This document shows, piece after piece, positions 16,884 through 23,137 of a DNA stretch of 64,000 nucleotides (within the stretch, counting starts at the first letter, position 1; each line of letters starts with the position of its first letter). The DNA is taken from positions 1 to 64,000 of the forward strand of contig NZ_BJYS01000044.1 in the NCBI RefSeq assembly GCF_007991635.1, in the 5' to 3' direction. The notes beneath the pieces are model-generated. The model saw only the letters and a program-made list of their open reading frames with translations, had not been told where the DNA came from and searched no databases. The stretch comes from Adhaeribacter aerolatus. GTDB taxonomy: Bacteria > Bacteroidota > Bacteroidia > Cytophagales > Hymenobacteraceae. The position numbers and the translations under genes are program-made.

Positions 16884-18446
16884 ATGGCTGATAAGATAAA
16901 AGATACTGAACATAAATTAACCCTCCGCCAACTCCGTCTCGCTGATTTTAAAGCCGTTAAGTCTATCATGGATACGGTTTACTCGAACCTGGGCGGTTCC
17001 TGGACGAAGAAAGAATTTGAAAATTTATTAAATGCTTTTCCGGAAGGACAGATCTGTATTACCGATAAAGGCAAAGTAGTAGCCGGCGCTTTAAGTATTA
17101 TTGTAAAATATTCCGACTACGGTGATAAACATACCTACGACGAAATCGTAGGCAAAGGCGAATTTAACACGCATAACCCCGATGGCGATACGCTTTACGG
17201 CGTAGATGTGTTTGTGCATCCTGATTACCGCAATTTGCGGCTAGGTCGGCGGTTGTACGATGCCCGGAAAGAAATTTGCGAAAACCTAAACCTGCGGGCC
17301 ATTATTGCCGGCGGCCGGATACCCGGTTACCAGGAAAACGCTGAGAAAATGTCGCCGAAGAAATACATTGAGCTGGTGCGTAACAAAGAAATTTACGATC
17401 CCATCCTCACTTTCCAGCTGAGTAACGATTTCCACGTGCGCAAAATATTAAAAGGCTATATGCCGAGCGACCAGGAGTCTAAAGCTTATGCGACGCTACT
17501 GGAATGGATAAACGTATATTACGAACCCAGCGAAGACATTATTGGTGTTCAGAAAAAAGTGGTGCGCATAGGTATTGTGCAATGGCAAATGCGCAGCCTG
17601 ACTTCAATTGAGGACTTATTGCAGCAGATTGAATTCTACGTAGATACAGTTAGTAGCTACAAAGCCGATATTATCATGTTTCCGGAATTCTTTAATGCAC
17701 CGCTGATGGCTTTATCGAACGATCCGTCCCCCTCCGCTGCCATCCGGACACTGGCTGATTATACCGATGAAGTACGCGAGAAAGTTATTCATATGGCGCT
17801 CTCCTACAACATTAATATTATTGCCGGCAGTATGCCCGAATATAATAATAAGCAGTTGCACAATGTGAGCTACCTCTGCCGTCGGGATGGTACCTGGGAT
17901 AAGCAATATAAATTGCACGTTACACCCGACGAAGCGCATTACTGGGGCCTCCGGGGCGGTAATAAATTACAGGTTTTTGATACGGACATTGGAAAAATTG
18001 GTATTCTGATTTGCTACGACGTAGAATTCCCGGAACTGGCCCGGATGCTTTCGGACATGGACATGAAAATATTATTTGTGCCGTACTGGACCGATACCAA
18101 AAATGCTTACCTCCGGGTACGGCGTTGTGCCCAGGCGCGGGCTATCGAAAACGAATGCTATGTAGCTATAACGGGCAGCGTGGGTAACTTACCGCGTGTC
18201 GAAAACATGGATATTCAGTACTCGCAATCAGCGGTGTTTTCGCCTTCTGATTTTGCTTTCCCGCACGATGCCGTGGTAGCTGAAGCTACGCCCAATACCG
18301 AGATGACACTAATTGCTGATTTGGACCTGGATTTATTGAAAGATCTAAATACCGGCGGCAGCGTCCGGAACCTCCGTGATCGTCGGAAAGACCTTTACAG
18401 CCTGAGTTGGTTGTTGAAAAAGGAAATTACCGATACGGTATTTTAA
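16884..18446 (+). CDS. GNAT acetyltransferase-nitrilase fusion protein
   Basis: A 520-residue two-domain protein. The N-terminal part (about 10-205) is a GNAT-type N-acetyltransferase, with the acetyl-CoA loop near VHPDYRNLRLGRRLYDAR. The C-terminal part (about 228-510) is a carbon-nitrogen hydrolase with the Glu-Lys-Cys triad in FPEFFNAPLM, DKQYKLHVTPDE and ILICYDVEFPE. This fusion is a known family of unknown substrate, with relatives in many bacteria. Its acetyltransferase and amidase activities may act on the same metabolite. It has its own -7 box upstream and an intrinsic terminator downstream, so it looks monocistronic. Confidence 0.93.
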   Translation: MADKIKDTEHKLTLRQLRLADFKAVKSIMDTVYSNLGGSWTKKEFENLLNAFPEGQICITDKGKVVAGALSIIVKYSDYGDKHTYDEIVGKGEFNTHNPDGDTLYGVDVFVHPDYRNLRLGRRLYDARKEICENLNLRAIIAGGRIPGYQENAEKMSPKKYIELVRNKEIYDPILTFQLSNDFHVRKILKGYMPSDQESKAYATLLEWINVYYEPSEDIIGVQKKVVRIGIVQWQMRSLTSIEDLLQQIEFYVDTVSSYKADIIMFPEFFNAPLMALSNDPSPSAAIRTLADYTDEVREKVIHMALSYNINIIAGSMPEYNNKQLHNVSYLCRRDGTWDKQYKLHVTPDEAHYWGLRGGNKLQVFDTDIGKIGILICYDVEFPELARMLSDMDMKILFVPYWTDTKNAYLRVRRCAQARAIENECYVAITGSVGNLPRVENMDIQYSQSAVFSPSDFAFPHDAVVAEATPNTEMTLIADLDLDLLKDLNTGGSVRNLRDRRKDLYSLSWLLKKEITDTVF

Positions 18447-18693: not shown

Positions 18694-20067
18694 ATGAGTA
18701 AAGATAAACCCGCTATTCCGAAAGGAACCCGTGATTTTGGCCCGCAGGTGGTAGTAAAACGAAATTATATATTTTCGACCATCCGGAAAACCTTTGAAAA
18801 ATTTGGCTATCAGCCGCTGGAAACGCCCGCCATGGAAAATTTATCGGTACTAACCGGCAAATACGGCGAGGAAGGCGACCAGCTTATATTTAAAATATTA
18901 AATTCCGGCGACTACCTGGCCAAAACTTCTGCATCCGATTTTGAACAGGGCAGCAAAAGTATGCTGCGCAAAATATCCGAAAAAGCTTTACGCTACGATT
19001 TAACCGTGCCGTTTGCCCGTTTTGTGGTGATGAACCGGAACGAAATTACCTTTCCGTTTAAGCGCTACCAGATTCAGCCGGTTTGGCGCGCCGACCGGCC
19101 GCAGCGGGGCCGTTACCGAGAGTTTTACCAGTGCGATGCCGATGTGGTAGGCACCAAATCGCTGCTCTGCGAAGCCGAAATTGTGCTGATGATGGATGAA
19201 GTGCTGAGTAATTTAGGGATTACCGATTTCACTATAAAAATTAATCACCGGAGCATTCTGGCCGGCATAGCCGAGGCAATCGGACAAAAAGGCCGGGAAG
19301 CCGAAATCTGCGTAGCCATCGATAAGCTTGATAAAATCGGACAAGAAGGAGTAAATACAGAATTATCTGAACGGGGCATCAGCGCTGAATCGATTTCTGC
19401 CTTACAACCTATTCTTGATATACAAGGAAATAACCAACACGTTATTAATAGCTTAAAAACCATTTTAAAAATTTCTATAGAAGGCCAGCGCGGCTTAGCC
19501 GAGATAGAGGAAGTGTTTAATTACCTCTCCCGGTTCCAAGTGAGAAATGCCCAGGTAAACTTAGATATTGCGCTGGCACGAGGCCTCTCCTATTATACCG
19601 GCTGCATTTTTGAAGTGAAGGTTAACAATGCATCCATGGGCAGCATCAGCGGCGGCGGGCGCTACGACAACCTGACCGGCATGTTCGGGTTGCCGGATGT
19701 ATCAGGCGTGGGATTTTCCTTTGGCGTGGACCGGATTTACGATGTAATGGAAGAGTTAAACTTGTTCCAGGCATCCAGCCAAACCATCACCCAATTATTA
19801 ATCTGTAACTTCGATAAAGCTTCGGAAGAATATTCGCTGCCGCTGTTACAACAGTTTCGGAATGCGGGTATTGCTACCGAATTATACCCCGAGGCAACCA
19901 AGCTGAAAAAACAAATGACCTACGCCGATCAGAAAAAAATTCCTTTTGTGTTATTAGTGGGCTCTGAAGAAATGCAAACCGGCTTGCTGCAACTGAAAAA
20001 CATGCAGACCGGCGAGCAAATGGCTGTTTCTGCTGAAGGTGTTATCTCCAAACTCCTGGAAATATAA
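18694..20067 (+). CDS. hisS: Histidine--tRNA ligase
   Basis: A class II aminoacyl-tRNA synthetase that charges tRNA-His. The 457-residue protein shows motif 1/2 regions [25 protein letters not shown] and [19 protein letters not shown], and the histidine-binding loop [15 protein letters not shown]. The C-terminal anticodon-binding domain (about 365-457) contains [10 protein letters not shown] 2-base gap separates it from the following histidine-ammonia-lyase-like gene, so the two are certainly co-transcribed. The preceding 180 bases are AT-rich with no full promoter match. Confidence 0.97.
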
Positions 20068-20069
20068 GT

Positions 20070-21230
20070 ATGGCCTACACCTTAGCTGCCGAACCGCTGT
20101 CGCTGGAAAACCTGGAGAAGATCTACGAAGAAAAATCTTTGTTAGAGATTTCACCGGAACTATTGGCAAAATTACGCCCCAAAGAAGGTAGTCTTAAATC
20201 CGACTCTGCCACGGCCGAAGCCTTTTTGCTCTCTCATGGTTTAAGCTTCGGTCCGGCGGTGCCCGAAGGCGTTATCCGGCTAACGCTGGTTTTGCAACTC
20301 GCTACGCTCCTGCAGCAGTCGCAGCCGGTTCAACCTGATGTTTTGCAGCGATTACTGGCTTTTCACAACCGCGAAGTTTGGCCGGTAGTACACGAACATG
20401 GGTTGCCCACCAGCCAGCTAACGCAATTAGGTTTGCCCCTGCTTGGGTTAGGCAAAGTAAGCTTCCAGGGATATGAGCTAAATGCCGCTGACGTGATGGA
20501 TATTTTCAGTTGGCAACCGCTCACTTTAACCGCTCCGGAAGTAGATAATTTTATCAATCAAAATACATTTACCTACGCTAACCTGCTCTATTATTTATTC
20601 CGGTTTCAGCCTTTGGTAAACTGGCTGGAATATTTAATCGGCGTATTCGATGGCATTGCCTCGGATCAACCTGCCTCTTTGCCGGCAAACTGGCAAAAGC
20701 TGAAGGCTGCGCTGGAAAATACGCGGGGCATTATTCAGGAAAATTATGCCAGACCAGTCGAAAAGCAGGATTTAGCCCAAGTGCGCGATTCTGTTTTGGG
20801 TTTGCTGAATTTCTTGATTAAAGTGATGGCGGCTCTTACCGATTTAACTTCCGAAACTTACGATAACTTGGTTTCTACTTCGGAACCGCCCGCAACAACC
20901 AGTTTTGCCAAGGCTTCGGACTTGGTACAATCGCTGCAAAAACAGCTTAACCTCACCGGCCTGAACCCCACCGATACCATTATTTTAAACAAAGATATGC
21001 GGCTGCTGCACCATGAGTTATCTGAAGCAATTAACCTCACGGAGCAAATTATGGCCTTGGCTTTCTGGTCGGTAACGCAGGTAGGCAAAGTTTTCAGCTT
21101 AACACCCGGAAATTTAACTCTAAGCGCATATTACCACTCGGCTTTCTTCGTTCCTAAAAAAATGGCTTCGGACCAGCTACAAAAAATAGTAGACTTTACC
21201 CGGATAACAACTCCTGCGCCCTTAACTTGA
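20070..21230 (+). CDS. Degenerate histidine/aromatic ammonia-lyase-like protein
   Basis: This 386-residue protein aligns by eye with histidine ammonia-lyase (HutH) over about residues 10-180. FLLSHGLSFGPAVPEGVIRL matches the LSHAAGIGAPLxxxxVRL block, NREVWPVV matches NAEVYPHI, GLPLLGLGKVSFQGYEL matches SLVLLGEGKARYKGQWL, and WQPLTLTAPEVDNFINQNTF matches LEPLTLAAKEGLALLNGTQ. The MIO-forming GSVGASGDLAPLA is replaced by HGLPTSQLTQ, with no Ala-Ser-Gly. The about 50 residues carrying YGxNTGFG are missing, and the protein is about 120 residues shorter than HutH. It cannot be a normal MIO enzyme and is probably a pseudoenzyme. The helical C-terminal half is hard to align. It is co-transcribed with hisS (2-base gap) and its TGA overlaps the TTG of the next gene. 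Confidence 0.7.
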   Translation: MAYTLAAEPLSLENLEKIYEEKSLLEISPELLAKLRPKEGSLKSDSATAEAFLLSHGLSFGPAVPEGVIRLTLVLQLATLLQQSQPVQPDVLQRLLAFHNREVWPVVHEHGLPTSQLTQLGLPLLGLGKVSFQGYELNAADVMDIFSWQPLTLTAPEVDNFINQNTFTYANLLYYLFRFQPLVNWLEYLIGVFDGIASDQPASLPANWQKLKAALENTRGIIQENYARPVEKQDLAQVRDSVLGLLNFLIKVMAALTDLTSETYDNLVSTSEPPATTSFAKASDLVQSLQKQLNLTGLNPTDTIILNKDMRLLHHELSEAINLTEQIMALAFWSVTQVGKVFSLTPGNLTLSAYYHSAFFVPKKMASDQLQKIVDFTRITTPAPLT

Positions 21231-23137
21231 AAAAGTTAGTTTCTTTGGTATTCCTGCTCACTTGGTCGCCTATGTTATGGGCGCAGGTTAATTCCTGCCC
21301 TGAGAAGTTTAAAGCGTATAACGCCGCCGGGCAAGAAGTAACCCAATTTTGCGTAGGTCAGCCCATACGGTTTAAATCATGCTTGCCCAATACCCAACCA
21401 GACAAAGAGTATTACGACTTTGATAAAAGCAACAATGTTTCTTTTTCGACGGACACAACCAAAATATTCACTTATAACCGGGCCGGCACTTACACAATAA
21501 CCCAGTTAATTAACACCGGGCAAATTTTTCAGAATGAAAGAACCTTTGTGGTGGTAGATACGCCACCGCCGGTTTTTACCGTTACAGCCTGTGCCCAGAA
21601 CCAGGTGCGGGTTACCATTATCGATTCCAATTACAATAATTTTCTGGTTGATTTCGGCGACGGCACCAAACAGAACCTGATCAGAGGCGCTTCTATTAGC
21701 CACCAATACAGCCCGGGTACGGCTCTAAAAGTAGTAGTAATCGGTTCTTATACCGGGGCTACCTGCACCCGCCAGGCCGAAACCACGGTGCAGCCCTTGC
21801 CCGCTCCTGCGGCCCCGGTTCTGGAAAGCATCCGGATTACTACACCGGGCACAGCCGGCACCTTAGCTTTAAGCATTAAAAACCTGCAACCGGAATATTT
21901 TTATATTCTGGAGCGCGTAGTTGGGTCCAGTACCACTTTAATAGATACTTTAAAAAACCCGGCTAATACCACTCTTAATTATACTATTAAAGATATTAAT
22001 ACGGCCAATCCAGCTTGTTTCCGGTTGCGTACCACCGACCGTTGCGGTAGTAATTTAAACGTAACGCTGGCCAATATTTGCAGTCAGCCCTTAACCGCTA
22101 CGCCGGGCAATAACCAGGTAGTTTTATCCTGGCCTTTTTACCGGGAAGGGGGCAACCTGGAAAATTATAAAGTATACCGCAATGGCACTTTACTGCAAAC
22201 TTTGCCGGCTAATATTACTACTTACACCGATACCGACGTGGTTTGCGGCACTAATTATTGTTACCAACTGACAGCCGCTTTAAAAAGTAATTTTAGTTCC
22301 GTCTCGATTGAAAGCTGTGCATTGGTAACCACCACCAACGCTCCGCAAGCAGGTTTTTTAAGCAGTACATTTACCCCTAATAATCAGGTGGAACTAAATT
22401 TCAAACCTGCCGGCAATAATCTACCTAAAACCATTACTTACCAGAAAAGCCAGAACAATTCACCGTTTACGAATTTAGCCACTTCCGATAAAACCACCTT
22501 AACTGATGCCAACAGCAGCACCAATAATGGGCAACTATGCTACCAGGCTTTTTTTGAAGATAATTGCGGTAAAGCCTCCGCGGCCAGCAATACTACCTGC
22601 CCCGTATTAATACAGTCTACTTTAAACCACGATGGTACTTTAAACCTGAATTGGACAGATTACCTGGGGTTCGCTGGTCCGGTACAATATTTTTTGGAGC
22701 AGGTAGATACCAATGGTAGCGTTTTAAGCAGCTCCCCAGTCACTGGCAATACCTTCAGCCAGAAAATGAACACCACCAACCAGCGGCAATATTTCCGGAT
22801 AAAAGCTACGGGGGTTAACCCAACCGAAATTTCTTTCTCCAACACGGTGCTGGTGCAGCTGGAAAGTAAATTTGCCTTGCCCACGGCTTTTTCGCCGAAT
22901 GGCGACGGCCTGAACGACCGCTTCGAAGTAAAAGGCCAGATATACGGTAACTTCCGGCTGCAAATTTTAAACCGCTGGGGACAAATAATTTTTGAAAGTA
23001 CCAATCAGCAGCAAGGCTGGGACGGAAAGATTAAAGGCCAGGATGCTCCCGTTGGCGTTTACGTGTATTCCCTTACGGCCACCGATGGTACCGGCAAAAA
23101 TATTACCCAAACCGGAACCCTTACGTTAGTAAAATAA
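21227..23137 (+). CDS. Secreted protein with PKD/fibronectin-type domains and T9SS type B C-terminal domain
   Basis: A 636-residue exported protein. A signal peptide (KKLVSLVFLLTWSPMLWAQV, about 1-20) is followed by an Ig/PKD-like part (about 25-200), fibronectin-type III-like repeats (about 200-545), and a gliding-motility/type IX secretion C-terminal domain (about 550-636) with LPTAFSPNGDGLNDRFEVKG and VGVYVYSLTATD. It should leave the cell through the type IX system and be attached at the surface. The many Cys residues are spread through the repeats. The start is TTG at 21227, overlapping the previous stop as TTGA; a Lys-rich signal peptide follows directly. No T9SS machinery genes are in the window. 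Confidence 0.88.
   Translation: MKKLVSLVFLLTWSPMLWAQVNSCPEKFKAYNAAGQEVTQFCVGQPIRFKSCLPNTQPDKEYYDFDKSNNVSFSTDTTKIFTYNRAGTYTITQLINTGQIFQNERTFVVVDTPPPVFTVTACAQNQVRVTIIDSNYNNFLVDFGDGTKQNLIRGASISHQYSPGTALKVVVIGSYTGATCTRQAETTVQPLPAPAAPVLESIRITTPGTAGTLALSIKNLQPEYFYILERVVGSSTTLIDTLKNPANTTLNYTIKDINTANPACFRLRTTDRCGSNLNVTLANICSQPLTATPGNNQVVLSWPFYREGGNLENYKVYRNGTLLQTLPANITTYTDTDVVCGTNYCYQLTAALKSNFSSVSIESCALVTTTNAPQAGFLSSTFTPNNQVELNFKPAGNNLPKTITYQKSQNNSPFTNLATSDKTTLTDANSSTNNGQLCYQAFFEDNCGKASAASNTTCPVLIQSTLNHDGTLNLNWTDYLGFAGPVQYFLEQVDTNGSVLSSSPVTGNTFSQKMNTTNQRQYFRIKATGVNPTEISFSNTVLVQLESKFALPTAFSPNGDGLNDRFEVKGQIYGNFRLQILNRWGQIIFESTNQQQGWDGKIKGQDAPVGVYVYSLTATDGTGKNITQTGTLTLVK

Follow-up and report, generated by a model that had tools for sequence, protein, structure and literature searches.

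Histidine ammonia-lyase (HAL, HutH; TIGR01225, PF00221) belongs to the MIO family, and ergothionase (PDB 6s7j) is an enzyme with a fold of the same PF00221 type that works without MIO. Pseudoenzymes kept for binding or scaffolding are a known general class, and HisZ, a paralogue of histidyl-tRNA synthetase (HisRS), acts together with HisG. In searches of the open-licence literature, the broader ones judged from their top listings, we found no report of a pseudoenzyme in the MIO ammonia-lyase family, and nothing that links HAL with Adhaeribacter or describes an operon of HisRS and HAL.

The gene described here is found in Adhaeribacter aerolatus, on contig NZ_BJYS01000044.1, of which positions 1 to 64,000 were analysed; this whole stretch of 64,000 nucleotides is called the window. 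From its sequence and position, the gene is a hutH that has decayed in place. An earlier note on this DNA, made from the sequence only, had called the product an ammonia-lyase pseudoenzyme, and this seems to be right, the catalytic residues being lost and the protein being under purifying selection.

Locus and neighbouring genes

The features of the locus are as follows, in window coordinates, with the basis of each in brackets.

18694..20067, + strand: hisS, histidyl-tRNA synthetase, 5' neighbour of the HAL relic (PF13393, E 3.7e-41; PF03129, E 1.8e-16)
20070..21230, + strand: HutH-derived, MIO-less, shortened histidine ammonia-lyase, 386 aa (PF00221, active-site residues absent, Foldseek HAL/PAL fold)
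20349..20513, + strand: conserved core, residues 94-148 (RLLAFHNREVWPVV...FSW), which flanks the former MIO loop (pooled pN/pS)
20400..20426, + strand: shortened loop replacing the MIO triad, residues 111-119, GLPTSQLTQ (alignments with intact relatives)
20454..20513, + strand: hairpin and helix, residues 129-148 (KVSFQGYELNAADVMDIFSW), the best conserved element (pairwise identity)
21227..23137, + strand: CHU_C (type IX secretion signal) gene (PF13585, E 1.8e-19)

The ORF of the HAL relic begins 2 bases past the stop codon of hisS, as the earlier note had it, but it is a separate ORF and not fused to the synthetase gene; a Pfam search of the protein found PF00221 and no tRNA synthetase domain. 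The reading frame is open, not broken as in a pseudogene, and its stop codon overlaps the TTG start of the CHU_C gene (TTGA, 4 bases). The same TTGA overlap is present in L148, L149 and L150, and a GTGA overlap in the intact Rufibacter loci L151 and L152; this arrangement is found with dead and intact HAL copies alike. Elsewhere in the window, the ORF at 16884-18446 encodes a GNAT acetyltransferase domain at the N-terminus, followed by a carbon-nitrogen hydrolase domain.

The homology to HAL that had been claimed for the protein is borne out by PF00221, which aligns with residues 47-190 (77 bits against a cut-off of 27.3; E 1.6e-21), and by HAL 1b8f in a sequence search of the PDB (E 3.2e-10); ergothionase 6s7j gives a phmmer E of 0.33. 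The relic is about 110 residues shorter than HutH, and its 50.1 bits with the curated hutH model (TIGR01225) are below the cut-off of 539.15. The window genome has no second PF00221 match at E ≤ 10, which rules out that the protein is the regulatory subunit of an active HAL there, and no urocanase or hutI match was found in this genome.

All eight Adhaeribacter genomes examined have the relic, at 377-390 aa, each as its only PF00221 match and with a gap of -4 to 2 bp to hisS. Close relatives of the window protein are those of A. rhizoryzae (76%), an Adhaeribacter MAG (63%) and A. aquaticus (40%). Two subgroups of the genus diverge strongly in the relic, most of all in the C-terminal half, the identity to the window protein being 41-76% for L002-L005 as against 22-25% for L006-L009.

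The lost active site

Alignment with intact relatives shows that the Ala-Ser-Gly (ASG) triad and the YGxNTGFG segment are both absent from the window protein, as had been noticed earlier, and that the region with Q277, Y280, R283 and F329 is not recognisable. Active-site positions are given here in the numbering of P. putida HAL. There are gaps at the Tyr53, Gln277, Tyr280, Arg283, Phe329 and Glu414 columns, with an uncertain alignment in the C-terminal half, and the H83 and N195 columns alone keep their letters. At the equivalent positions of a Geobacillus HAL, Y52F, H82L, N194D and E411D each abolish the activity (PMC11432326). Both the alignment and the intact orthologues at the same locus show that catalytic residues have been lost from the homologue of an enzyme. 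The existence of homologues with an intact ASG triad had been named in the earlier note as a point against the idea; the orthologues do have it; this shows that the relic descends from a working HutH, and it is no argument against a pseudoenzyme. In the shortened loop S115 is invariant in all eight Adhaeribacter proteins and is followed by Gln, Pro or Leu, never by Gly; judging from the alignment, it may be what is left of the MIO serine.

As a correction to the earlier note, direct matches to HAL stop near residue 190-206 of the window protein. The C-terminal half is linked to HAL solely through the predicted structure and through dead homologues of the sister genus g5, which we take to be Hymenobacter. 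The hhalign match of the Adhaeribacter proteins to intact HALs covers 200 columns at the N-terminus (99.9%, E 1.7e-32). For the dead g5 proteins, profile comparison extends the match to intact HALs along almost the whole protein (E 3.6e-66), and between the dead sets of Adhaeribacter and g5 it gives a match of 349 columns (E 3.8e-36).

The structure search that had been suggested also points to the HAL/PAL fold. The better AlphaFold model of the window protein (pLDDT 66.7, pTM 0.70), whose alignment had the two Rufibacter HALs as N-terminal pieces only, gave seven best Foldseek matches in the PDB that were all of this fold, six of them at E ≤ 0.001, with 7tqr at the top (E 6.5e-7, TM 0.61 by query). 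For the first model (pLDDT 55), with an alignment that had a doubtful C-terminus and contained two intact HALs, all 47 matches at E ≤ 0.001 were of the HAL/PAL fold. Ergothionase 6s7j is among the best matches of the models. The hairpin-helix is predicted, with low confidence, as strands at 130-132 and 135-137 and a helix at 139-145, and model confidence is lowest in the core, where pLDDT is below 50 over most of residues 102-154. Perhaps the conserved core is modelled poorly because the alignment is thin, or because a partner is needed.

Intact and dead forms in the family and the order

We surveyed 200 genomes of the family, all of which have a PF00221 match, and fetched the locus for 105 of them. 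CHU_C lies 3' of HAL in every fetched locus, and hisS is upstream in 98. Recurrence of the hisS neighbourhood, which the earlier note had wanted checked, is thus seen within the family but in only 3 of 10 loci from other families. As for the seven loci where hisS was not found, it was not seen in about 7 kb upstream in G089, G160 and G148, in G197 and G192 it would lie off the end of the contig, and there was no upstream extension for G067 and G046.

In related genera the same hisS-HAL-CHU_C order holds a full-length HutH whose active site is intact. The three intact relatives tested exceed the hutH cut-off of 539 bits (L151 614, L016 622, L086 617), and the five dead copies tested fall below it, at 129-460 bits. 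Among the urocanase-positive rows, 35 of 36 have all twelve active-site positions, the exception being L045 (Tyr53 missing, N-terminus in another frame); among the full-length rows without urocanase 18 of 20 have them, the exceptions being L078 (Tyr to His) and L046 (N-terminal frame problem). The out-of-frame N-terminus of these otherwise intact HALs, L045 (G193) and L046 (G196), is either real or an assembly error. The positions are also intact in all 27 further rows, made up of 15 new urocanase-positive ones from the family, 10 from other families and 2 repeats of genomes in the first set. By residue, 51 of the 146 urocanase-positive genomes were checked; 94 were judged intact from Pfam scores, and the remaining one, G187, has a dead copy here. 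Away from hisS, a further full-length aromatic lyase in a frame of about 530-565 aa is present in G148 (L068), G071 (L069) and G079 (L047, a full-length PF00221 copy), and also in G157 and G159.

Loss of the MIO triad recurs in relatives, a point that the earlier note had wanted checked, with 35 dead copies in the 200 genomes. Twelve of these are full-length-like, with open frames of 438-575 aa, ten from g5 and two from g3, and in all twelve the MIO serine has been lost, by substitution with Tyr or Phe, by deletion of the serine or by deletion of the loop. Another 22 are short (353-441 aa; 8 from Adhaeribacter and 14 from g5, G187 included), and the triad as well as Q277, Y280, R283 and E414 are gone from every one of them. 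The copy in G190 is broken into pieces of 217 and 194 aa, with the triad missing before the break. All triad-less forms are presumed to be dead; MIO loss alone is no proof of inactivity, as the example of ergothionase illustrates, and L048, L081 and L085, among the dead full-length forms, retain several active-site residues.

In 291 genomes drawn elsewhere in the order, PF00221 was matched in 206. The ten loci from other families were all intact by residue; two have the order hisS-HAL-CHU_C, one has hisS-HAL and seven have neither neighbour within the flanks. The hisS-HAL-CHU_C order is not order-wide. No short MIO-less form was seen outside the family among six low-scoring or split matches whose locus layout was inspected again: G228 and G317 sit where a contig ends, G349 is divided between two contigs, in G265 both stretches belong to a single 620-aa frame, the pieces in G300 are separated by stops, and G291 is a partial match.

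Loss of the hut pathway

Urocanase (hutU) is present in 146 of the 200 family genomes. hutI is matched in 147 at E 1e-30, with 144 above its cut-off, and the 147 are the same 146 urocanase-positive genomes plus G139. The hutI of G139 is a relic with a stop codon, and in G129 and G131 the hutI matches are below the cut-off, in 229-aa frames, and the urocanase frames are of 306 and 442 aa; in these three genomes the pathway has apparently been caught in mid-decay.

A triad-less HAL was found in 34 of the 54 urocanase-less genomes, as compared to one of the 146 urocanase-positive ones (Fisher p 3e-23, a statistic that ignores shared ancestry). HAL-derived sequence is still there in all 54, broken in G190, with hutU absent from all 54 and hutI from 53. 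The triad is retained in 20 of them, which implies that death is not immediate on loss of the pathway. Where such triad-bearing HALs occur without an intact hutI, for instance in G040, G052 and G074, urocanate might be the end product. The sole urocanase-positive genome with a dead HAL, G187, has its relic near CHU_C and a separate urocanase-hutI-HAL cluster on contig C142 (contigs C142 and C9; L044, L084, L111), apparently a pathway regained beside the relic.

The lesions differ from clade to clade. On a hisS tree (98 rows, single gene, quick method, with G089, G160, G192 and G197 left out), and assuming that death is irreversible, the lower bound on independent deaths is 6 at SH-aLRT ≥95, 9 at 90, 10 at 80 and 11 with the full tree. 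An independent-pairs test on the hisS tree, of low power, had 6 usable pairs with agreement in 2.4 on average and a median p of 0.5.

Selection on the dead copies

No frame break was seen in 34 of the 35 dead copies, that of G192 reaching the contig end, and G190 is the sole break. When neutral substitution was simulated for three genes, none of 300 frames was open at 0.4 substitutions per site for any of them; dS among the dead pairs is 0.26-2.2, the highest value being saturated. The dN/dS (Nei-Gojobori) of 13 intact pairs is 0.02-0.12. For pairs sharing a lesion it is 0.09-0.20 when dead and full-length (6 pairs) and 0.12-0.42 when dead and short (10 pairs); hisS from these genomes, as far as it was available, gives 0.01-0.14. 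As each pair shares its lesion in kind and place, the differences within it most likely post-date the catalytic death, and the values over the 16 pairs (0.09-0.42), well below 1, point to purifying selection after the loss.

This selection is not evenly spread. In the core, a stretch of 55-60 residues that runs from the helix preceding the MIO loop up to the FSW motif, the pooled pN/pS of intact copies is 0.047 with urocanase and 0.036 without; for dead copies it is 0.055 in the full-length forms, 0.11 in the short g5 forms (5 pairs) and 0.18 in Adhaeribacter (4 pairs, two of which have 0.28 and 0.31). The flanks have 0.09-0.23 in intact, 0.25-0.26 in dead full-length and 0.42-0.47 in dead short forms. 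Synonymous change in the core is at ordinary levels in the dead pairs. The hairpin-helix, residues 129-148 of the window protein and 166-185 of L016, has a mean pairwise identity of 0.84 in intact g5 (31), 0.78 in dead full-length g5, 0.79 in dead short g5 (14) and 0.80 in Adhaeribacter (8); for the former catalytic centre (L016 241-430) the corresponding values are 0.86, 0.63, 0.37 and 0.27. The same short element is retained in separate lineages. Because the core is the most constrained part of intact HALs too, this is an old constraint that has been retained and not a new one. The two dead short lineages do not agree at several of the conserved polar positions.

Possible function of the relic

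We believe that the window protein is a retained pseudoenzyme with a non-catalytic role, likely the binding of a partner at the hairpin-helix (129-148), and would give this a probability of roughly 0.58. The ancestor would have been a working histidine ammonia-lyase encoded between hisS and the CHU_C gene. Once hutU and hutI were lost, its activity would have been useless and maybe a waste of histidine, with urocanate as a dead end, and the MIO triad would then have been lost repeatedly in different lineages. The protein itself would have been kept for a second, non-catalytic role, most likely partner binding around the former MIO loop, and the constraint on it would reflect that function. In the window genome the partner would not be another HAL, as none was found, and HisS is not favoured. 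It is conceivable that the HAL of this family always had a second function at the hairpin-helix, independent of catalysis, so that the enzyme half was lost with the pathway and the other half was kept, giving rise to pseudoenzymes in parallel; we hold this tentatively, at a little short of even odds.

Compared with hisS, the dead short forms evolve faster, and the G190 copy is frame-broken, which means that slow decay is possible. The relic would then have no function as a protein, and its frame would be held open by translational coupling: ribosomes finishing the relic start on CHU_C, stops and frameshifts are purged, and what remains of constraint is avoidance of misfolding. The stop/start overlap in the window and in L148-L152 could alone select for an open frame, CHU_C follows HAL in 105 of 105 fetched family loci, and the constraint is relaxed outside the core. 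What slow decay leaves unexplained is the low core pN/pS (0.03-0.31 by pair, pooled 0.06-0.18) at the same stretch in separate lineages, and for coupling a deletion would do equally well. Coupling may help to hold the frame open, but it does not explain the local amino-acid constraint, and decay as the whole explanation seems rather unlikely to us.

The earlier note had proposed a regulator that binds histidine or HisS. The short distance to hisS in all eight Adhaeribacter genomes (-4 to 2 bp) would suit a partner of HisS or a histidine sensor, but most of the histidine-binding residues are gone. Of the 14 dead short loci in g5, six have hisS at a distance of 868-5305 bp or none that was found within some 7 kb on the upstream side; in G089 a GH31 glycosidase gene lies directly upstream of the relic. 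CHU_C, by contrast, follows in 14 of 14. Long gaps occur with some intact copies too, so the distance to hisS is no mark of death. On these grounds the proposal seems very unlikely. A new enzymatic activity in the HAL fold, independent of MIO as in ergothionase, would agree with the sequence constraint, with the invariant loop serine S115 and with the presence of 6s7j among the best structural matches. It seems the least plausible of all, since most former active-site positions have no counterpart in the window protein, the best conserved residues are those of the hairpin-helix, and the conserved polar positions are not the same in the dead short lineages.

The family seems to have run the same natural experiment six times or more: the pathway was lost, then the chemistry, and the protein was still selected. 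Relatives carry the intact form, recently dead forms and strongly shortened ones side by side, which makes a hidden function of a textbook enzyme testable, and the conserved element of 20 residues shows where to look for it. The label hutH, or 'aromatic amino acid lyase', need not mean histidine degradation in this family.

Comparison with known systems

To HutH the window protein is linked by direct descent, with the same locus, a recognisable fold and a recognisable N-terminal half, and it differs in being without ASG, YGxNTGFG and a recognisable central substrate-binding region. A HAL fold without MIO chemistry is common to the window protein and ergothionase, but the latter is an active lyase of full length, with 497 residues in 6s7j, and the sequence search showed no close relation to the shortened protein. 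HisZ, the analogue chosen in the earlier note, is likewise a non-catalytic relative of a histidine enzyme; it derives from HisRS, whereas the window protein derives from HutH. With the pseudoenzymes that are kept for binding or scaffolding it shares the loss of catalytic residues and purifying selection on the rest. Unlike these, it has no active paralogue to regulate in its genome, and the HAL relics have arisen repeatedly in place, not by duplication.
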